Part shown: positions 18,887 to 50,923 of the stretch, piece by piece
Position numbering within the stretch: the first letter of the stretch is position 1
Layout: the number at the start of each line of letters is the position of its first letter
Source of the DNA: Lachnospiraceae bacterium
GTDB taxonomy: Bacteria; Bacillota; Clostridia; Lachnospirales; Lachnospiraceae
Reading direction: 5' to 3'
Assembly: GCA_900199595.1 (NCBI GenBank)
Contig: FZRB01000009.1
Location: forward strand, 1-64,000
DNA: 64,000 bases
Made by a program: the position numbers and the translations under genes
The notes under the pieces: generated by a model
Database searches by the model: none
What the model was told of the DNA's origin: nothing
The model's input: the letters and a program-made list of their open reading frames with translations, nothing else

Positions 18887-21742
18887 TTAGTAGTACCCTA
18901 TAAATTCCCAGTTCTTTTTTTTGTGAACATTCTTATCACCACTGAGTCTGAACCAGAAATCAGGGACGAAGGTATTGCCGTTGTTCTTTTCTGTATCCCA
19001 CACTCTGCCCCATATGAGTTCAAGACTGTCCTGATTCTTGTAATCACTGTTTATAGCCTTGCCTGTAAATGGATTGGTAGGATTATCAATGACATCCTTA
19101 AAAGCAATAGTCGGTACATCTGCATTTGTCATAAAAGTTTTGTCATCAAATGTGAAGCCCTTAGCATTGAAATCTTTTACAAACAATACGCAGTTATATT
19201 CAAGCATATCGAACTCCTTAATAGATTTTTCCTGCTTGTATGGACGTTGCACTTTCAGGATAAGCTTTTTATTCTCACGAAGCTTCCATGCATGATCAGA
19301 AACTATGATTATTTTGGTATTATCATAAACTCCCTGTTCTCTAAGATAATCGAACCACTGGCCAAGCTTAATCATAGCACACATATTAACATGATAATGA
19401 AGAACAGTATTCATCCTCTTCATCTTGAGCTTTCTGCCGTCCATGCTTTTTCTGGTCTTATGCTCCTTATCGAACTTGGTATTATCCACCGTTTCTGCCG
19501 GCATGTATTCCGGTTCCTGAAGTATCATAGGTCCGTGAGTCATATCATTACTCATCATGAGAAATGTATTCTTATTTCCTTCAGCTATCTCAGTTATATT
19601 GGGCATGCTGTCCAAAACATTGTAACTGTTCATAAAGGTTGGATCGTAGCCCGTAGCCTTTGATATACCATCTCTGGTCTGACCGGACATATTCAGCGCC
19701 TCGTGATTAGCCAATGAACAGTAATTACCAAAATCATACATAGTCGGCTGAACCAGCAGCGGAATAGTCTTGAATACCGAATAACAGAAGAAATTTCTCT
19801 TAAGAAGATCATCTATTTCATCCTTATTGGCCTCACTGTAATTAACCCTGCCCATGGTTATATATGCTTTAATATTCGGGTAGTCATCATATATACTAAG
19901 ATCCGGAATCCACTGGTAGCCTGCGTAGGTCGGATCACATACGGTAACATCAAAGCCTGCATTATCAAATGTAACCGGCATCACCTTAAGCGCTTCATTC
20001 TGCTTATCCACCAGTCTTTCTTTATCTCTTTTATTATTCTCCGTTGGCACATATTCATAACCGCCATAAAGTCCCGGCGTTCCATAATTAGTTTTATGTC
20101 CAAAGGTTATGGTGTTGTAATAATATGTGAAACCATCGAACTTTTCCTTAAGCTCAGGCTTTTCTTCAATGACAAATGGAATCATGTATCCACACATTCG
20201 ATCCATCATGATAACAACAACATTTTGTCCCTCTTTACTAAGTGTAAGCGTCGGAACCTCCTGTGATCTCTTACCCAGTTCTTCTATTTCCTTATAGTCC
20301 GTACTGATCTTGTAAATATTCTTGATACTCATAATGCTCATAGCTATAACGCCGGCAGTAAGGAGTGAAAGAACAATTCTTTTATTCCATTTATAAAGCG
20401 CCGCACATACGAGGATTACTCCAAATATTGCAGCGAAGTTAATCAGGTATTCTTTCTTTGTGTATATCGAAAATTCCTCATACTTAAGGAATGAGGATAG
20501 TATTCCCAGATCAGTTTTAAAGAACATAAAGTCTATTACAAATATGGCTGAGACGCACCACGTAGCAAGAGCAAATATTATCTTGCCGGTTTTGTCAGCC
20601 AGATAATAGAATATGCCCATCCAAACGAGAAAATAACCTGCAGCCAGGAAAAATGTATAAACCACGTATCTTATTGGAGAATGGATAACAGATACATCTA
20701 TAAATTCCGCAGTTGATGCAGCAATAACATTACTCGGGATGAAAAGTCCAAGCAGTATGCAGAGGAAAACTCCCGAAAGAATAAATATCCTCTTAAAGGA
20801 ATTATCCTTCTCGGCATTTCTTATCTTTTCGCCAAGATCTGCCTTCTCAAATGGCTTCAGGATAAGCAGCACCAGTGGCATTATCAAAAGAATGGCAAAT
20901 GTCGCCAGGAAGAATTTCATTCTCTTTGAATAGGCAGGTGAAGCCAGTACAAATACCAGCAGCGCTGCACCGGCTATACCAAAAAGCACAGCCAGCACTT
21001 TCTTTGGTTGCTTTATCTTATAGAATACATTTTTCAAAAGCGAAAAAATGTTGTTAAGGGTCCAGTAAAATGCAAGGCCTGAAGGTGACTGATACAGAAA
21101 TACTAAAAATACCAGCGCCATACCATACATCTGGATCTTACTCTTCAGTGATAGATTCTTGGAATATATCATGGCCGAAGCAATATTTATAACAGTCATG
21201 AGAATCGGCAGAATGTTTATGCTGAAACCACCGATTTTAATAAGCCCATCCGGCTGGCCGAGATCTGCAATAGGACCAAGGGATGCGCCTTGTAATATAT
21301 ATAGATTTGAAAGGAAATGATATGCCGCGATAAAGAAAGGTATCTCAAGCAGCAGCGAAAGTGAACCACGAAGCGCATAGCTTGGCTTGTAATCATTCTG
21401 CCTATAGAAGGTCTGAAGCATCATAAAGCGCTCATCACCCTTAAATGCTTTTTTGATATGCTTTACCCATTTACCAAGTCTTTCTTCAACCTCTCTCTCC
21501 TCTGCCTGCATGGCATCTGCACGCTTATACAGAGGAAGCACAAGAAAATTCATAGCAAGACTAAGTGCAATAATAGAAAGCCCCGGTACTCCTATTACCT
21601 TATTGGCATTATAAAATATAACCTCAAATAAAAGCTCCAAAGGCTTTATTAATAACGTATACAGATAGATAGATATATTCAATTTATCTGTTCTCCATTC
21701 TACAAACTTTTTGTTACTTACATCGATAGATATGGTAATCAC
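18887..21742 (-). CDS. YidC/Oxa1-like domain fused to membrane sulfatase-fold transferase
   Basis: 951 residues. The first 240 residues match the YidC/Oxa1 core: a first segment ending FLVLPLYKRA (66-75), a cytoplasmic helical hairpin, an EIPFFIAAYHFLS segment, and PSGLAFYWTLNN (220-231), the classic PAGLxLYW block. The arginine normally found in the first core segment aligns with Asn65. Several more membrane segments follow (about 247-470), then an extracellular alkaline-phosphatase/sulfatase domain: metal Asp514 in VVIMMD, candidate nucleophile Thr551 or Thr555 in KTNYGTP, His736, and D816-H817 in VSDHA. Such domains transfer phosphoglycerol or phosphoethanolamine, or cleave sulfate. The GTG start (AGAGG upstream) overlaps the previous gene by 29 bases; a TTG at 21682 with GGAGA is the alternative. 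Confidence 0.85.
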   Translation of the reverse strand: MITISIDVSNKKFVEWRTDKLNISIYLYTLLIKPLELLFEVIFYNANKVIGVPGLSIIALSLAMNFLVLPLYKRADAMQAEEREVEERLGKWVKHIKKAFKGDERFMMLQTFYRQNDYKPSYALRGSLSLLLEIPFFIAAYHFLSNLYILQGASLGPIADLGQPDGLIKIGGFSINILPILMTVINIASAMIYSKNLSLKSKIQMYGMALVFLVFLYQSPSGLAFYWTLNNIFSLLKNVFYKIKQPKKVLAVLFGIAGAALLVFVLASPAYSKRMKFFLATFAILLIMPLVLLILKPFEKADLGEKIRNAEKDNSFKRIFILSGVFLCILLGLFIPSNVIAASTAEFIDVSVIHSPIRYVVYTFFLAAGYFLVWMGIFYYLADKTGKIIFALATWCVSAIFVIDFMFFKTDLGILSSFLKYEEFSIYTKKEYLINFAAIFGVILVCAALYKWNKRIVLSLLTAGVIAMSIMSIKNIYKISTDYKEIEELGKRSQEVPTLTLSKEGQNVVVIMMDRMCGYMIPFVIEEKPELKEKFDGFTYYYNTITFGHKTNYGTPGLYGGYEYVPTENNKRDKERLVDKQNEALKVMPVTFDNAGFDVTVCDPTYAGYQWIPDLSIYDDYPNIKAYITMGRVNYSEANKDEIDDLLKRNFFCYSVFKTIPLLVQPTMYDFGNYCSLANHEALNMSGQTRDGISKATGYDPTFMNSYNVLDSMPNITEIAEGNKNTFLMMSNDMTHGPMILQEPEYMPAETVDNTKFDKEHKTRKSMDGRKLKMKRMNTVLHYHVNMCAMIKLGQWFDYLREQGVYDNTKIIIVSDHAWKLRENKKLILKVQRPYKQEKSIKEFDMLEYNCVLFVKDFNAKGFTFDDKTFMTNADVPTIAFKDVIDNPTNPFTGKAINSDYKNQDSLELIWGRVWDTEKNNGNTFVPDFWFRLSGDKNVHKKKNWEFIGYY

Positions 21743-23804
21743 CCATATCCTCTAATAGTTCCAAACGTTCATCATCAATAACAGAACTTGAAAAAACATA
21801 CCTCACATCAAGTTTCTTTAAATCATCATATGTCAAATAAACTCTGAAACAGTCCTGATCAATCAGCTTAAACTTCTGACTGACAGAGGAATCATTTATA
21901 TACTCCGTCTCTATATGAGCATAACGGTTATATATCTTATAATTATCCGTAACACCTTTTTCTTTGGACTTGGAATCATTTGACGTATCTATGTTTTTCC
22001 ATCTTTCTATATCCGGATAAACATTTGTACTATTAATGGTTCTTATCCCCTTTAAAAGAAGAGCATTTGTAATCGGATAATTACATCCCTCAACTATCCA
22101 CAGTGCATCTCTGTCCTGCTCAGATATCTCTGCAGCCTTTTGAAGCTCCGGGATGGCATCTACTGATTGTACACCCAAACGTATAGGATTTACAAGTAAT
22201 CCTGAAAAGAAAATCATAAATATCAGTACCATCTGCCAGAACACCTTTATTCCTTTGCAAATCTGGGTTCCGAAATTATCACCGCTCCCGATATGAACAA
22301 ATGCATATTGAAGAAAACCATAAATGATAATCGTAAACAGAACAAAGGATACCGCAAGAATCTTCAGGGAGAAATATCCCGGATTAATGCTCCTTGTTAT
22401 TATAACTGCTACCATTGATATAACAGCTGATATAACAAGCATGGTAATGTATACGAATGCAGATACTTCGTTATGTGTTTTTTCCAGAGCTTCAAAACTG
22501 GATTTTATAATCGATACAGACCTTATCAGCATCAAAAAACTCACAAAGCTAAATATAACCAATGCCCTGTTCGCAGTTGAATAACCGAGAAGAGACAGCT
22601 TTGCCACCACATCGGGAACGCCGATCGCCGCATATGTAAACAGAACTATACTGATCACAAAAAGAACATTTGCAAGTACATCGGTCTTTTTATTCTTTAA
22701 CACATAAAACAGATATAAAATATGTCCCAGCGGAAACAAGTCTATAAAATATGCAGACTCACAGACATTATAGTAAGGTGATGCATTTCTATGAGCATAC
22801 CATATTTCAGATATATAATTAAACAAATGTCTTCCGGCTCCTCCACCGGTTTCAAATCTTCTTCCTGGATAGGATGTATTCATTATAAGTGATATAGCTT
22901 CCGCAGATTTATTATATACAAGATACAGACTAAAGCTCAGGATACCGGCAAGAACAACAACCAGACATACATCTGTTATTCTTTCTCTTTTAACATCAGA
23001 ATCATTCGAAGCTGTACCGTATCTCTTCCTATCATCCCATAACTGCCACAGGATAAGAGCCAGTATCACATATGCCATTGGAACCATCCAGGCAGGATAA
23101 AGCGTAAGAATAAATGTACCTGCACACAGCATGATACCAATCGCATAGATAATCTTATACAGAATGACTCTTTTGAAAGAAATATCCGATTTATCTGACC
23201 TGTTATCTCTAGATTTATTGACATTAAGATATTTGTTTAATAATACTATCGACAACTGAGCGGCAATCAGCATTTCTACAAATCCATTTACGGCAAACCA
23301 CCACTGCACTGCGGGTGCCAGCGTTGTCATCAATGAATATATAACAGAAAGTCTTCTATCATCATCCGTAATAAGACGCGCGAATTCAAAGGAAACCATC
23401 AAAAGCACTATAAATCTTCCGCACCAGAAAAATGCCATTCCCTGAGCAATAGGAAGGAACAGATAACCTATCTGAAATGGTCTGAATAGCATAAGAATGG
23501 AACGAACTGGCTGCCCATAAGTAATAAAAGCATCTGTTTTAGCGCCTCTGATAACGGAACTAAAATAAGAAAAGCTTCCGGCCGGGTCTCTGTACTGTGC
23601 CCAGGTCATGGGAGTAAAGGTTCCAAATTCATCACTCCTGATCTGTCTCGATACGCCAAAAAGAACATCCTTATCAGCTTGTCCGAACTGTTCAACCAGA
23701 CAGCCTATAGAGGAACCATTCAGCCCAACAAAAACACAGGCTGCAAATATAATAGCAGCCATAATGTATCGATATTTAAAAACTTTATCCATATATTTAT
23801 TCAT
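21714..23804 (-). CDS. Large polytopic membrane protein, putative glycopolymer enzyme
   Basis: About 696 residues with roughly 12-13 hydrophobic segments and a C-terminal soluble part (about 560-696). After the first segment comes an extracellular loop containing GVSRQIRSDEFGTFTP, a pattern I associate with a Clostridia membrane family (DUF7657-like) found in polysaccharide loci, and the overall plan resembles GT-C transferases or polymerases. No catalytic residue can be named with confidence. The annotated start at 23804 (MNKYMDKVF) avoids reading the stem-loop at 23823-23864, which an upstream in-frame start would translate. The ribosome site is weak. A Wzy-like polymerase role is inference. 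Confidence 0.7.
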   Translation of the reverse strand: MNKYMDKVFKYRYIMAAIIFAACVFVGLNGSSIGCLVEQFGQADKDVLFGVSRQIRSDEFGTFTPMTWAQYRDPAGSFSYFSSVIRGAKTDAFITYGQPVRSILMLFRPFQIGYLFLPIAQGMAFFWCGRFIVLLMVSFEFARLITDDDRRLSVIYSLMTTLAPAVQWWFAVNGFVEMLIAAQLSIVLLNKYLNVNKSRDNRSDKSDISFKRVILYKIIYAIGIMLCAGTFILTLYPAWMVPMAYVILALILWQLWDDRKRYGTASNDSDVKRERITDVCLVVVLAGILSFSLYLVYNKSAEAISLIMNTSYPGRRFETGGGAGRHLFNYISEIWYAHRNASPYYNVCESAYFIDLFPLGHILYLFYVLKNKKTDVLANVLFVISIVLFTYAAIGVPDVVAKLSLLGYSTANRALVIFSFVSFLMLIRSVSIIKSSFEALEKTHNEVSAFVYITMLVISAVISMVAVIITRSINPGYFSLKILAVSFVLFTIIIYGFLQYAFVHIGSGDNFGTQICKGIKVFWQMVLIFMIFFSGLLVNPIRLGVQSVDAIPELQKAAEISEQDRDALWIVEGCNYPITNALLLKGIRTINSTNVYPDIERWKNIDTSNDSKSKEKGVTDNYKIYNRYAHIETEYINDSSVSQKFKLIDQDCFRVYLTYDDLKKLDVRYVFSSSVIDDERLELLEDMGDYHIYRCK

Positions 23805-23822
23805 ATTCGTTATGCATCTTCC

Positions 23823-23864
23823 AAAAGATGACAGTCGAACCAGGTTCAAACTGTCATCTTTTTT
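23823..23864 (-). repeat. Conserved stem-loop family, copy 4, between glf and membrane protein gene
   Basis: Minus-strand reading: six A, GATGACAGTTTGAACC arm, TGG apex, TTCGACTGTCATC arm, four T. It lies between two same-direction genes, eight bases after glf. Confidence 0.8.
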
Positions 23865-33796: not shown

Positions 33797-34669
33797 TCAA
33801 TCCTGATTCAATTCTGAACCATCAATAAATCTTATATACTCTGCAGCCTGGTTCCATCTTTTATTCTCAGGTGGTAACTCCATATAGTTATCTCCATAGA
33901 AATTTTTTAGATAGTACTTCCCACCAGTAGGAACCTGAATGGTTGAATCCTCAAATTTCACCTCTTTGGTACCGGATAACCACGATTTTTTATACATACT
34001 GAAAACATCACAGAACGAACCAACATAATTGTTATATTTACCGGTATAACGTCTGCACATTTTATCATACATACCAGCAAGGCGGAGAGAATCAAGCCTA
34101 AACACTTTGAGCAAATTCCGAATAAATAGCTTAACTATTTTCTTTACTGTCCCTTTTATTCCTCCTCCGAATACAATTACTCTTTTACAAGATGCTATAC
34201 CAAATAACGCCTTAAGTATTTCAGCCTTAAAATACATATTACGTATTTTTTTCTTATCATCCGGAAGATCATAGAAAGGAAATATCTCTACAAAAATACC
34301 CATATTATCTCTTCCGTCAGCCTTTGCGATCGGAGATATAAACTTAGAGTCCTTGTAATAAAACTTCGTAACAAAGCTGTAGTAATCTTCAGGATTTTTT
34401 TCAAGAGCGTATAGACCGAATTCTTCATATTCTTCAGGTGGTATTTGAAGAAACTTATCATAATCATCTATAAGCATTCCGAGATCAAGATCATCATCCC
34501 AAGGAATATACCCCTTATGTCTTACCGCACCAAGCAATGTTCCTGCAACAGCAAAGTAAGAAATATCATGCTTTTTACATAGTTCATCCAGCTTATTTAA
34601 AACAAAAAGCATATCATGATGCAGCTTATTTAATTCATCATCCTCATACTGTCTAAAGGTTGTTTTCAT
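33797..34669 (-). CDS. LicD family phosphotransferase
   Basis: 290 residues. GTLLGAVRHKGYIPWDDDLD (about 44-63) is the LicD nucleotidyltransferase-fold signature; the DDDxD aspartates bind metal. LicD proteins move phosphocholine or related phospho-groups from a CDP carrier to glycans. The first four bases overlap the end of the cytidylyltransferase gene (ATGA), so the transferase and its probable donor-making enzyme are translationally coupled. It is one of three LicD genes in the locus, and the one tied directly to the aminotransferase-cytidylyltransferase pair. Confidence 0.9.
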   Translation of the reverse strand: MKTTFRQYEDDELNKLHHDMLFVLNKLDELCKKHDISYFAVAGTLLGAVRHKGYIPWDDDLDLGMLIDDYDKFLQIPPEEYEEFGLYALEKNPEDYYSFVTKFYYKDSKFISPIAKADGRDNMGIFVEIFPFYDLPDDKKKIRNMYFKAEILKALFGIASCKRVIVFGGGIKGTVKKIVKLFIRNLLKVFRLDSLRLAGMYDKMCRRYTGKYNNYVGSFCDVFSMYKKSWLSGTKEVKFEDSTIQVPTGGKYYLKNFYGDNYMELPPENKRWNQAAEYIRFIDGSELNQD

Positions 34670-35391
34670 TGTCCGATTTTCTCTCCTTCAATACCTCTAT
34701 ATTCAAGAATTCTCTTATAATCCTCTATATAGTCAACCTCTGCCCAAAAGAACCCTTTTATGTCTTCTATATATACACTGTCAGACTCACTTATGTTATA
34801 AACAACATTCTCCCACCACACGCTATGCTGCTGGGTTCTTATCATCTCTTCCAACTTGTCACGGAATCTTTTTATAAATTCAAAATCAAATGTTCCGACT
34901 CCAATATATTCTCCAGATGTCTCCTCAGCAGTAAGTTCCTTGCCATACTTTTTCAGAATTCCATTTTCATAATAGAACTTATAATCAGCCTCTTCCTTAC
35001 GACTACCATCCGCAAACATAACCGGAGACTTAGGTTCATTTATTATACGGTCAAAAAGCTCATCCTGTAAAAAAACATCTCCATTCATTATCATATAGCT
35101 GTCTTCCTGCTTCATGAAATCCTTTGCAAACCATATAGAAGCAATACTGTTAGTTACATCATAAAAAGGATTTTCATAATAGGAGATATCATAGTCCTTA
35201 AGCTTTTCTCTGATATGCTTATTATTGTATCCCAGAACAATAGCTATATCATGAATTCCCTTACTCTTTAATTTCTTAATAGTATATTCAATCAAAGAAA
35301 TCCCACCGATATCAACCGTACACTTAGGTCTCCCTGCAAGATATCTGCTTATTCTCGTACCACGTCCAGCGGCAAGTATTATTACTCTCAT
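34666..35391 (-). CDS. LicC/PntC-like cytidylyltransferase
   Basis: 241 residues. LAAGRGTRI (6-14), PKCTVDIGG and MNGDVFL are nucleotidyltransferase motifs; YENPFYDVTNSIASIWFA is the substrate-side block seen in phosphocholine/phosphonate cytidylyltransferases (LicC, PntC). It probably makes a CDP-activated small amine. Stop and start codons overlap by four bases with both neighbours. Because an aminotransferase precedes it and no choline kinase or choline importer is present, CDP-aminoethylphosphonate or another amino-alcohol donor is an option. Confidence 0.85.
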   Translation of the reverse strand: MRVIILAAGRGTRISRYLAGRPKCTVDIGGISLIEYTIKKLKSKGIHDIAIVLGYNNKHIREKLKDYDISYYENPFYDVTNSIASIWFAKDFMKQEDSYMIMNGDVFLQDELFDRIINEPKSPVMFADGSRKEEADYKFYYENGILKKYGKELTAEETSGEYIGVGTFDFEFIKRFRDKLEEMIRTQQHSVWWENVVYNISESDSVYIEDIKGFFWAEVDYIEDYKRILEYRGIEGEKIGQ

Positions 35392-36461
35392 AGTATTTCT
35401 CTCCTGACAAGATCATTTAAAGCCTTTATCAGTATATCATTATCTTCCGGCTTAAGAGCCCCTATATGACCAACACGAAATATCTCATGTTTAAGACTTC
35501 CTCCATTAGGACATATCCATATTCCATATTCATCCTTCAAGGATTCAAATGCAGAATATGCATCCTTTCCCTCTGTCACCTTTAAGGTGGTAACGGCATT
35601 AGACATGTTATTCGAGAAAAATACAAGCGGAAGATCCTTTATTTTGGATCTGAAATCCTCTGCAAGATTCTTCACTCTTTCAATTTCTTTATCCACTCCT
35701 ATTTCTTCTACTCTTTTTAATCTTTCATGAATCTGAAGAAGTATTCCGACAGCAGGAGTAAATGGAGTCTGCCCTCTCTCACCATTTGAAAGCATGCTCT
35801 TAAAATCAAGATACATGCATGTGGTTTTATTACTATTAACTCTTTCAAGAGCCGCCTCATCTAATACAACTAAAGACACTCCGGGAGGAACAGCTAGAGC
35901 CTTCTGTGAACCAGTAATCATAACATTCACCCCCCACTCCTGCATTCTGAATTCATCTGCCATGAAAGAAGAGATAGCGTCTACTACCAAAAACAGATTA
36001 TTTTTTTTGCAATAATCACTTATTAATTCAGGATTGTAATAAACGCCGGTAGAAGTCTCATGAATATTAACAATAAACCCGGTATAATGAGAACCATCAT
36101 AATTACTCAGATCTTCAGATGTCAGGGTATGTCCAGGAGTAAGCTTTATCTCTGTATAATCAATATTATGAATCCTGCAGATTTCCACAAACCTTTCTCC
36201 GAAGCTTCCGCCATTGACAACCAATACGCGATCACCTTCGTTAAAACAATTAATTACTGTCGCCTCCATTGAGGCTGTACCGGAACCTGTAACAAAGCAT
36301 ACTCTTGAGGCAGCAGAAGCCCCTGCAAAAGTTTTCACTATACTTTCATTTTCAAGCATTATTTTTGAAAACTCCGGTGTTCTGAAATACGGAACCTGTT
36401 CTTTCCCCATTTCGAGAATGTAGTCCTCGCTCATAACAGGACCTACTGTAAAGTTTATCAT
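35388..36461 (-). CDS. Class V aminotransferase, AGT/AEP-transaminase branch
   Basis: 357 residues, PLP enzyme. The cofactor lysine is K187 in TGSQKALAVPPG, with D161 in LVVDAISSF. TVGPVMSE at the N-terminus and VTGSGTASMEA (58-68) are typical of the alanine-glyoxylate / 2-aminoethylphosphonate-pyruvate transaminase group. The coupled cytidylyltransferase and LicD suggest that it makes the amino compound used for glycan decoration. Phosphonate genes pepM and ppd are not in this window, so the substrate remains open; serine-, alanine- or AEP-linked chemistry are all possible. Confidence 0.85.
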   Translation of the reverse strand: MINFTVGPVMSEDYILEMGKEQVPYFRTPEFSKIMLENESIVKTFAGASAASRVCFVTGSGTASMEATVINCFNEGDRVLVVNGGSFGERFVEICRIHNIDYTEIKLTPGHTLTSEDLSNYDGSHYTGFIVNIHETSTGVYYNPELISDYCKKNNLFLVVDAISSFMADEFRMQEWGVNVMITGSQKALAVPPGVSLVVLDEAALERVNSNKTTCMYLDFKSMLSNGERGQTPFTPAVGILLQIHERLKRVEEIGVDKEIERVKNLAEDFRSKIKDLPLVFFSNNMSNAVTTLKVTEGKDAYSAFESLKDEYGIWICPNGGSLKHEIFRVGHIGALKPEDNDILIKALNDLVRREIL

Positions 36462-36493
36462 CTTTATCTTGTCTCCTTTTATTGAGAGAATTA

Positions 36494-37360
36494 TTAATCT
36501 TTCTTAAAGCTTAGTTTATACGGATAATGATTTCTTCTTTTATCTTCCGGAGGAAGTGTCATATAATCCCCGTATTCCCTTTCCAGGTTGTTTTCTATCC
36601 TGTTAGGAAACTTAAGATCAATATCCTCAAAACGAAGCTTCTTAAGCGGATATATATCTTCTATGTAATGAATATTCATATACGCCGTGGTATCACACAA
36701 AAAATCAATCCTTTTCGTTTCTCCAGACTTATTATACTGAGTGCTAACAGCCTTGCACATATTATAAAGCCATTTTTTTGAAACGTTAAATTTCTTCAAA
36801 GCAAAATGAATAAGTCGGCATATCTTCGATATTATCTTTGCCTTGATTCCATCTACCGGAAGCACAGGATCTGGGATACTCCTGAGTATCAGAAGCTTGC
36901 TCCAGAAAAATGCCTGAATAGACTGACGTCTGAATTTCCTATCATCATCCGGGACTTTATCCAAAGGATATATATCAAGGAATATTCCAAAAGGACATCC
37001 TTCTATATCCTTAAGCGGCCACTCTATGAACTCCGTTCCTTTCATGACCCATCTTGTTGTAAGAAGAGGATAATTCGGATAATTCTCTCCGTTAAGAACT
37101 ATGTATTTATCAGCATATTCCTTTTGGGCTATCTTAACAAATCTTTCATGATCCGCCCTTGGCATGGCAACATCGATATCATCATCCCACGGAATAAATC
37201 CACCATGTCTGATGGCACCGATACCTGTTCCCGCTATTCCAAAGTATGTAATATTATGCTTATCACAAAGCTCGACAAAATCCCTTAGTATTTCAAGTTC
37301 TGTCAGCTGAACCTTCCTTAATGTCTCATTATCATATTGTTTATCAGATATCTGACCCAT
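36494..37360 (-). CDS. LicD family phosphotransferase
   Basis: 288 residues. GTGIGAIRHGGFIPWDDDID (about 43-62) is the LicD signature. Only about 30 bases separate it from the aminotransferase gene downstream, so it may share the same decoration pathway. It resembles the LicD at 33797-34669 in length and layout, and both end in a PPE(D/N)KR block near the C-terminus, so they are paralogues. Confidence 0.9.
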   Translation of the reverse strand: MGQISDKQYDNETLRKVQLTELEILRDFVELCDKHNITYFGIAGTGIGAIRHGGFIPWDDDIDVAMPRADHERFVKIAQKEYADKYIVLNGENYPNYPLLTTRWVMKGTEFIEWPLKDIEGCPFGIFLDIYPLDKVPDDDRKFRRQSIQAFFWSKLLILRSIPDPVLPVDGIKAKIISKICRLIHFALKKFNVSKKWLYNMCKAVSTQYNKSGETKRIDFLCDTTAYMNIHYIEDIYPLKKLRFEDIDLKFPNRIENNLEREYGDYMTLPPEDKRRNHYPYKLSFKKD

Positions 37361-49954: not shown

Positions 49955-50923
49955 TTACAGTATGAACGGCTTATATACTATATGCTTCTCCTTATCTGCA
50001 TCCTCCGGTATCTGCATATAATCCCCATACAGCTTTGTAAGATACTTATCGTACGCTCTCGGAATGGCGCATTTCATATCACCAAAATCCATTTCAACCG
50101 TTTCAACCAGTTCGCTTCTCTTATACAGTTCTCCGAAGAAATGTTTTCTTCCGCATGGAGTAGTCACATACTTTGACCTGTTATTTCGGCACATACCGTT
50201 CCAGCGGTTGGCCAGTCTGGTCCAGAAGTTTATAGGCAGAACAGCCAGCGGCATACCCAGAAGAATCTTTATAATAAAAACCTTGCGGACCTTTTTAATA
50301 TATTCACGATCAATCTGGAAAGAATCTGATTCTTCTTCATCTCTTAAAGAATGATGCAGATTATTATCATTAACAAGCTTCATCATCATCTTCCGGTCTC
50401 TCCAGAACTTTCTGCAGGAAAGCAGAAGTCCCAGTGCCAGAGAGCCAAAGCCATGTATTTTTCTGAGTACAGGATTATCAAATGTATTCTCTATGATAAA
50501 TATATCGATAAATGCACCGCATTCATCAGTATAATAATCCTCCCTGGTTTTAACCGAGGTACATTTAAGTCTTACTCTTGAAAAAAGCAGTGCCAGATTA
50601 TCCGTCTCTTCGGGGGTATGTATCCAGTATTTCTTTCCCATTTTCTTCTTAAAGAGACGTCTGAACTTTTCATAATCACGTCGGGGCATGTTAATGTCTA
50701 TATCATCATCCCAGGGAATGATTGCCCCGTGGCGGACCGCACCAAGAACACTGCCTCCACCAAGCTCGTAACGAATGTTGTACTTTTTACAAAAACGTAC
50801 TATATCTCTTAGTATATCGTACAGAGTATTCTGGAGACTAAGCAGCTGCTCATCAGTTAATTCAATTGTATCCTTCGAGCAAAGATGCTTGAAGGCATCT
50901 ACGGTTGATAGTGAGTAATTCAT
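49955..50923 (-). CDS. LicD family phosphotransferase
   Basis: 322 residues. GSVLGAVRHGAIIPWDDDID (about 54-73) is the LicD signature; a late PRAYDKYLTKLYGDYM is also typical. It sits between the two CDP-glycerol-transferase-family genes, 11 bases after the longer one, and may decorate their product. It is more distant from the other two LicD proteins than they are from each other. Confidence 0.9.
   Translation of the reverse strand: MNYSLSTVDAFKHLCSKDTIELTDEQLLSLQNTLYDILRDIVRFCKKYNIRYELGGGSVLGAVRHGAIIPWDDDIDINMPRRDYEKFRRLFKKKMGKKYWIHTPEETDNLALLFSRVRLKCTSVKTREDYYTDECGAFIDIFIIENTFDNPVLRKIHGFGSLALGLLLSCRKFWRDRKMMMKLVNDNNLHHSLRDEEESDSFQIDREYIKKVRKVFIIKILLGMPLAVLPINFWTRLANRWNGMCRNNRSKYVTTPCGRKHFFGELYKRSELVETVEMDFGDMKCAIPRAYDKYLTKLYGDYMQIPEDADKEKHIVYKPFIL

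Follow-up and report, generated by a model that had tools for sequence, protein, structure and literature searches.

Outer-face phosphotransferases that move headgroups from lipid donors, among them LtaS, EptA and GacH, are a known kind of enzyme. A gene on the reverse strand of a 64,000-nucleotide stretch of Lachnospiraceae DNA (contig FZRB01000009.1, positions 1 to 64,000; hereafter the window) encodes a protein, referred to here as A, in which a sulfatase-fold domain is joined to a YidC/Oxa1-type core. Like LtaS/LtaP, EptA/EptC/MCR-1 and PbgA/YejM of the alkaline-phosphatase superfamily, A has transmembrane (TM) helices and a sulfatase-fold domain with the D/E, T and D-H metal-site residues, but it differs from them in an extra N-terminal YidC core and two linker helices. 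Insertases of the YidC/Oxa1/Alb3 family (those of B. halodurans and E. coli) are among the closest known relatives of this core, as is chain OX of a human mitoribosome entry, presumably OXA1L. In contrast to these insertases, A has Asn, Gln or Ser at the position of the groove arginine, forms its own group in the tree, and is fused to seven TM helices and a sulfatase-fold domain. GacH belongs to the same fold family as the sulfatase part of A. According to PMC8807736, which also mentions a gacH-T530A construct, GacH adds a glycerol-phosphate headgroup to the exported streptococcal group A carbohydrate, whereas genes near A point to choline, phosphonate or other headgroups. For the Lic and Pnt pathways, PMC6697681 describes how small headgroups bound for the cell surface are activated by nucleotidyl transfer, and it names LicD-like phosphotransferases; lic-type and phosphonate-type genes likewise lie near part of the loci described below.

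A is usually accompanied by a second protein, B, and has relatives in which the YidC core is instead fused to a B-type domain (YidC-B). Both B and the C-terminal part of YidC-B belong to or resemble the PF04464 glycosyltransferase-B (GT-B) family, as do TagF/TarL/TarF/Cps3D-type transferases. Unlike these, B begins with a conserved one-helix segment (YIDP), and its sister protein has a YidC core at that place. Every module but YIDP belongs to or resembles a known family; what is new here is the A-B linkage, the reciprocal YidC-B fusion and the presence of YIDP proteins or domains in its loci. A literature search on YidC/Oxa1 with such enzymes, which covered titles and the starts of abstracts, was not exhaustive, left subscription journals mostly outside and did not include YIDP, found no description of the YidC-sulfatase or YidC-B fusions. 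The fusion of YidC to an outward enzyme here and to a likely cytosolic partner in relatives suggests an undescribed relay across the membrane. We tentatively favor a reading in which A would supply the outer-face half of a modular relay for the transfer of small phospho- or phosphono-headgroups from a cytosolic nucleotide to a surface glycopolymer.

The open frame of gene A reaches upstream to a GTG at 21742, from which residues are numbered (951-amino acid [aa] numbering), and the length of the gene is matched by its homologues. Its parts are as follows.
18887..21682, reverse strand: fusion gene A (YidC core, seven TM helices and sulfatase-fold domain), 931 aa from the likely TTG start
21011..21664, reverse strand: YidC/Oxa1 five-TM core, residues 27-244
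21548..21550, reverse strand: codon of Asn65, placed by alignment at the insertase groove arginine position
20813..21007, reverse strand: poorly conserved linker with two TM helices in the predicted model, residues 246-310, mean column identity 0.26
20270..20800, reverse strand: PbgA/LtaS-like five-TM membrane part, residues 315-491, from the predicted model and the match to PbgA (6xlp)
18890..20248, reverse strand: sulfatase-fold domain, residues 499-951, predicted outside, from the model and the 6xlp match
20201..20203, reverse strand: Asp514, predicted metal ligand, kept in 113/113 proteins
20090..20092, reverse strand: Thr551, predicted nucleophile, kept in 113/113
19535..19537, reverse strand: His736, predicted active-site residue, kept in 113/113
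19292..19297, reverse strand: Asp816-His817, predicted metal ligands, kept in 113/113

In the predicted model of A, the YidC fold is intact, comprising the five-TM core with a cytosolic helical hairpin that defines PF02096, and the TM6 motif is kept. The sulfatase fold follows the TM helices, as in LtaS/EptA/PbgA-like proteins. PbgA (6xlp) could be aligned to residues 301..951 with an overall root-mean-square deviation of 15.5, indicating that the domain orientation in the model differs from that of PbgA. Although A does not reach the Pfam Sulfatase cut-off (PF00884; 22.3 versus 25 bits), D514, T551, H736, D816 and H817 are invariant in all 113 non-identical A proteins. We take D514, T551, D816 and H817 to be equivalent to the LtaS/EptA metal site, on the strength of the fold match and of the residue roles in LtaS/EptA-type enzymes. 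Lys and Arg make up 24% of the loops assigned inside and 4.6% of those assigned outside, and the sulfatase-fold part is predicted to face outward. The outward enzyme probably adds phosphate-containing groups to surface sugars. Much of the preliminary description, made from the window alone, is borne out by these results: a genuine YidC-fold domain, present in the structural model of the first part of A, is fused to an LtaS/EptA/PbgA-like sulfatase-fold part; the location of that part outside agrees with the topology prediction; and the residue at the insertase arginine site is indeed Asn (Asn65).

The survey of databases that the preliminary description had called for found that the fusion recurs, with the partner gene B as a neighbor. 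Of 299 genomes of the same family, 18 match A at E 1e-10 and 16 hold the fusion, among them G052, whose fusion is shorter and scores low in the sulfatase part. The other two matches are an ordinary YidC (G097) and a remnant (G081). This remnant (L021 1501-1713) is an 88-aa frame with 46% identity to A residues 26-103 and looks like what is left of an A gene; a UDP-galactopyranose-mutase-like gene lies in the same locus. Full-length proteins, 19 in number and each encoded by one open frame, were aligned from 15 of these genomes. A scan of a larger genome collection returned at least 593 pattern matches, with at least 583 encoding some relative of A (not necessarily the whole fusion). The best 80 of these yielded 78 loci (A-loci), which therefore represent the closest relatives of A and not an even sample. 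A near-full-length fusion in a single open reading frame (ORF) is present in 77/78, giving 97 proteins in total, and the 78th is cut by a contig end; L095, whose frame leaves the contig, was left out of row set A2. This recurrence rules out a sequencing or assembly error, for which no evidence turned up and to which we assign practically no probability.

Most hosts of the A-loci are Clostridia of gut and rumen; the labels Schwartzia, Solobacterium, Eggerthellaceae and actinobacterium occur once each. In a phylum-wide sample, A was found in 3/398 genomes at E 1e-60, and a broad phylum signal was rejected on this count. As to viral spread, one scan of viral contigs with the A protein of the window gave no pattern match. 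Copy numbers are lower bounds, since no more than two candidate sites per genome entered the scoring in the search of the 299 genomes with A and in the phylum searches with A and YidC-B, and no more than six in the B-profile search. One locus (L052 66-16042) holds a tandem array of four full-length and two cut copies of A together with one B in 16 kb.

B is a membrane-anchored PF04464-type protein of ~420 aa that starts with YIDPGTGSM or a similar sequence and resembles GT-B proteins of the CDP-headgroup-transferase kind (CDP, cytidine diphosphate). It is present in 66/78 A-loci, a count that may be a lower bound because the B gene of L043 is apparently hidden by a longer antisense frame, and it is directly adjacent on the same strand in 63/78. 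Among the 299 family genomes, A occurs in 16, B in 15 (E <1e-170) and both in 15 (Fisher p 2e-24, kinship ignored). The only A-genome without B is G215, where the A gene lies at a contig end. Four scanned B-type proteins, one of them a fragment, pass the PF04464 cut-off of 22.1 with 35-55 bits; the B row set A3 leaves out L073, L086 and L101. In the genome of the window, B is encoded behind a nucleotidyltransferase-aminotransferase fusion (L134 5598-8635) and unlinked to A; homologues of that fusion are found in five A-loci.

A second YidC fusion is present in the genome of the window (L002), where the YidC core is joined to a B-type domain. This fusion gives no PF04464 match at E 0.01, though profile comparison shows its C-terminal part to be homologous to B (hhalign 99.9%, E 7e-32, 24% identity), with the match beginning past the YIDP helix of B. 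Frames of YidC-B size (594-729 aa) were recovered with a B profile from 14/299 family genomes, and PF02096 lies in the same frame in 10/10 of those that were included in the PF02096 search. Of the 398 genomes in the phylum sample, three have a match to the YidC-B profile, and in one of these three the YidC part is missing. One YidC-B locus was taken from each of 11 of the 14 genomes, and 7/11 contain a stand-alone sulfatase homologous to the outer domain of A, adjoining or one gene off and on the same strand (E 5e-10 to 2e-20). All seven keep D514, T551, H736, D816, H817 and K856, and five pass the Pfam Sulfatase cut-off. In 10/11 loci a small one-helix YIDP protein is encoded, and in the eleventh (L176) YIDP is fused to the front of the sulfatase. 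The modules thus occur in four layouts: YIDP-B with YidC-sulfatase; YidC-B with separate YIDP and sulfatase; YidC-B with a YIDP-sulfatase fusion; and YidC-B with YIDP where no sulfatase homologue was seen (four loci). This reshuffling is the strongest evidence that the four modules form one system. The partner B, the reciprocal fusion and the YIDP module lay beyond the reach of the preliminary description, as it had a single window in view.

The YIDP segment also gives rise to the main rival of the proposed relay. The YidC core could serve as a dedicated insertase or docking platform for the YIDP helix, holding the inner B and the outer sulfatase together and moving no lipid, a possibility that we consider real but on the unlikely side. 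YIDP is found in 11/11 YidC-B loci and near the N-terminus of 67/69 B proteins, and next to a YidC-B fusion the helix comes as a gene of its own, as though binding to that core were its usual state. By reading, several YIDP proteins have a signal-peptide-like start and a short outer tail, features shared by small YidC clients. One of three scanned YIDP proteins just passes the Pfam inovirus coat protein B model (24.6 versus 23.5 bits), and another falls below its cut-off. A profile of ten YIDP proteins, searched against the 15,872 ORFs of the collected loci, gave 20 matches at E 0.1, 19 in YidC-B loci (several duplicated) and one in a B. Its match to the B N-termini (94%, E 1e-7) is however short and motif-anchored, and docking alone leaves the fusions to enzymes on opposite faces unexplained, though a scaffold could account for them. 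A tblastn search of plasmids with one YIDP protein found nothing.

Within A, the YidC core has a mean column identity of 0.63, compared with 0.49 in the sulfatase domain, 0.35 in the five-TM part and the still lower value of the linker given above. Pairwise identity of the core averages 57.6% in A versus 45.2% in the housekeeping YidCs of the same genomes, and is higher in 85/91 pairs from 14 genomes (G052 and G109 excluded, with a single A copy taken from each genome). Gene transfer could inflate this comparison between A and housekeeping YidC but not the column identities within A. The YidC core of A is under strong constraint. The passive YidC "chassis" of the preliminary description is accordingly unlikely. 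We also find it improbable that the core is an anchor acquired by chance gene fusion and that A is simply another LtaS/GacH-like decorating enzyme. The sulfatase part, with five TM helices of its own, does resemble complete stand-alone proteins, and stand-alone sulfatases exist in the sister system. Besides being the most conserved part of A, however, the YidC core has been fused separately to the partner enzyme, and no close homologue of the A sulfatase part without YidC was found in the 299 genomes at E 1e-10 (two places per genome at most; distant stand-alone sulfatases escaped this search).

A positive residue in the insertase groove is described as strictly conserved in PMC8920935. At this site the 113 non-identical A proteins have Asn (110), Gln (2) or Ser (1), and thus no positive residue. 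The preliminary description took the loss of the arginine as a sign of a changed role, a conclusion that does not hold up against the housekeeping YidCs of the same family, where the site is Tyr in 8, Lys in 8, Arg in 5, Asn in 3 and Val in 1 of 25 aligned proteins (24 of L138-L162 plus L001, with L144 dropped). The 12/25 without a positive residue contrast with the strict conservation stated in PMC8920935, where the positive residue of E. coli YidC is also reported to be dispensable when residue 517 is hydrophilic or aromatic. The change in A is real, but alone it is no proof of a new role, and a positive groove residue is a weak criterion for insertase function. The dispensability of the arginine in some contexts, together with the intact fold and the TM6 motif, would also suit an A that acts as a second protein insertase, with the sulfatase serving regulation or quality control. 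We give this explanation little weight, because a separate PF02096 protein of housekeeping size is present in 15/16 A-genomes (the exception, G052, is 84% complete), because headgroup genes lie near part of the A-loci, and because the A cores form a tree group apart from the housekeeping proteins. A maximum-likelihood tree built from YidC domains has three groups, one each for the A cores (39 rows; support 100/100), the YidC-B cores (7; 100/99) and the housekeeping YidCs (25; 98/98); the placement of A relative to YidC-B is unsettled owing to the length of both branches. L144 and L133, with cut or mis-set N-termini, were left out of this tree, and identical rows were entered once. Housekeeping yidC is flanked by rnpA and jag in 25/25 loci examined (L138-L162), whereas A of the window sits among polymer genes.

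Choline-kinase-type genes are present in 18/78 A-loci and some lic-type gene (kinase, EamA-type permease, LicC-like nucleotidyltransferase or fusions of these) in 25/78; in 12 A-loci a lic-type gene lies directly beside A or B. Counting all headgroup-activation genes that were looked for, 30/78 A-loci have at least one. Phosphoenolpyruvate (PEP) mutase occurs in two A-loci, one of them from Schwartzia, and in G052 a cytidylyltransferase gene stands between B and A. In Schwartzia succinivorans DSM 10502, homologues of PEP mutase, Ppd and PhnW share a stretch with A and B, and both A and B are also carried by Butyrivibrio sp. MB2005. Among the YidC-B loci, PEP-mutase-type and thiamine pyrophosphate (TPP)-enzyme genes are found in 5/11 and a nucleotidyltransferase-aminotransferase gene in three others. 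The YidC-B stretch of the window's genome encodes a nucleotidyltransferase-cytidylyltransferase-PEP mutase fusion, an iron alcohol dehydrogenase and a TPP enzyme that looks like phosphonopyruvate decarboxylase. Names for the gene clusters come from reading or from the scan of a single representative per cluster. Beside the YidC-B fusion, a run of phosphonate-type genes includes a 669-aa protein with nucleotidyltransferase, cytidylyltransferase-like and PEP mutase parts (L135 5347-7356). A fusion of a winged helix, a LicC-like nucleotidyltransferase and a choline kinase (L046 2583-4376) belongs to a cluster present in 9/78 A-loci.

LicD was not found in 8/11 genomes with licA and licB in the A locus. 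In four of these eight, the sole PF04464 match is one B-sized protein. B together with A, or YidC-B together with the sulfatase, might take the place of LicD.

In the relay that we tentatively propose, a cytosolic GT-B enzyme of the PF04464 kind (B or YidC-B) would move a headgroup from a CDP- or cytidine monophosphate (CMP)-activated form onto a lipid carrier at the inner face. Phosphocholine and CMP-activated phosphonates are candidate headgroups, with phosphoethanolamine and glycerol phosphate as less certain ones. The YidC core, accompanied in the membrane by the one-helix YIDP segment, would be the conduit: its groove would let the headgroup-lipid cross, and it would dock both enzymes. 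The TM-anchored sulfatase-fold enzyme outside would then transfer the headgroup to the exported glycan. In the window it is this last module that carries the YidC core, in the sister system the first. We know of no proven case of physiological lipid scrambling by the YidC/Oxa1 fold. The proposed crossing step draws support from the occurrence of the core fused to an inner-face enzyme in one system and to an outer-face enzyme in the other, and from the scrambling of lipids in vitro by E. coli YidC and other insertases reported in PMC10491306. The earlier idea of a lipid- or polymer-handling channel remains plausible and is strengthened by the same two lines of evidence. A bolder version, which we regard as doubtful, is that an Oxa1-superfamily core left protein insertion altogether and became a conduit, so that cytosolic transferase, YidC/YIDP and outer transferase would act as a single apparatus that produces phosphocholine or phosphonate groups, flips them and attaches them to surface glycans with no need for LicD. 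If the relay exists, the YidC fold would have a further task in living cells, the transport of lipids or headgroups instead of proteins, and its natural fusion to likely lipid-headgroup enzymes makes purposeful scrambling by Oxa1 proteins directly testable. It would also point to a LicD-independent route of surface phosphocholine or phosphonate decoration, mostly in gut and rumen bacteria, and give a testable function to genes likely to be annotated as insertase or hypothetical.

Several observations weigh against this relay. None of the headgroup genes looked for is present in 48/78 A-loci, and 7/25 lic-type loci have a nucleotidyltransferase or permease cluster only. The genomes in which LicD was not found look like small metagenome-assembled genomes of untold completeness, and their PF01066 CDP-alcohol phosphotransferase genes (0 to 4 per genome, at least two in 5/8) include some whose products could use CDP-choline. 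B may act on a lipid-linked glycan instead of making a donor lipid, since those of its homologues that carry names in PDB and NCBIfam are polymerases and transferases for teichoic acid or capsule. In the genome of the window, B sits on a different contig than A, and 4/11 YidC-B loci show no sulfatase homologue. Two short loops of A assigned inside (197-198 and 382-384) are nearly or fully without positive charge. The scrambling reported for insertases is in vitro and in silico. Finally, a 14-kb stretch of G695 combines phosphonate-type genes with a B-like enzyme and two distantly related sulfatase-like membrane proteins but encodes neither a YidC-like nor a YIDP protein, which indicates that the YidC module is not needed for the enzyme pairing everywhere, at least not nearby. 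In this set (L184 3194-12224), from a distant family of the phylum, the YidC-free B-like enzyme is followed by the two membrane proteins.

The surroundings of A in the window agree with the glycopolymer locus recognized in the preliminary description. They include three LicD genes, a LicC-like gene, a class V aminotransferase, UDP-galactopyranose mutase, TagF-like and IspD/TarI-like genes and, by reading, TagGH-like ABC export genes. This content places A inside a glycopolymer pathway that has decoration genes of its own. The three LicD genes lie within 33797-37360 and 49955-50923, and the LicC-like nucleotidyltransferase and the class V aminotransferase, which resembles 2-aminoethylphosphonate (AEP) transaminase, stand between two of them. 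Directly upstream of A, on the same strand, a gene for a membrane-protein-like product with DUF7657 and DUF7654 (21714-23849) ends ~30 bases before the likely A start.

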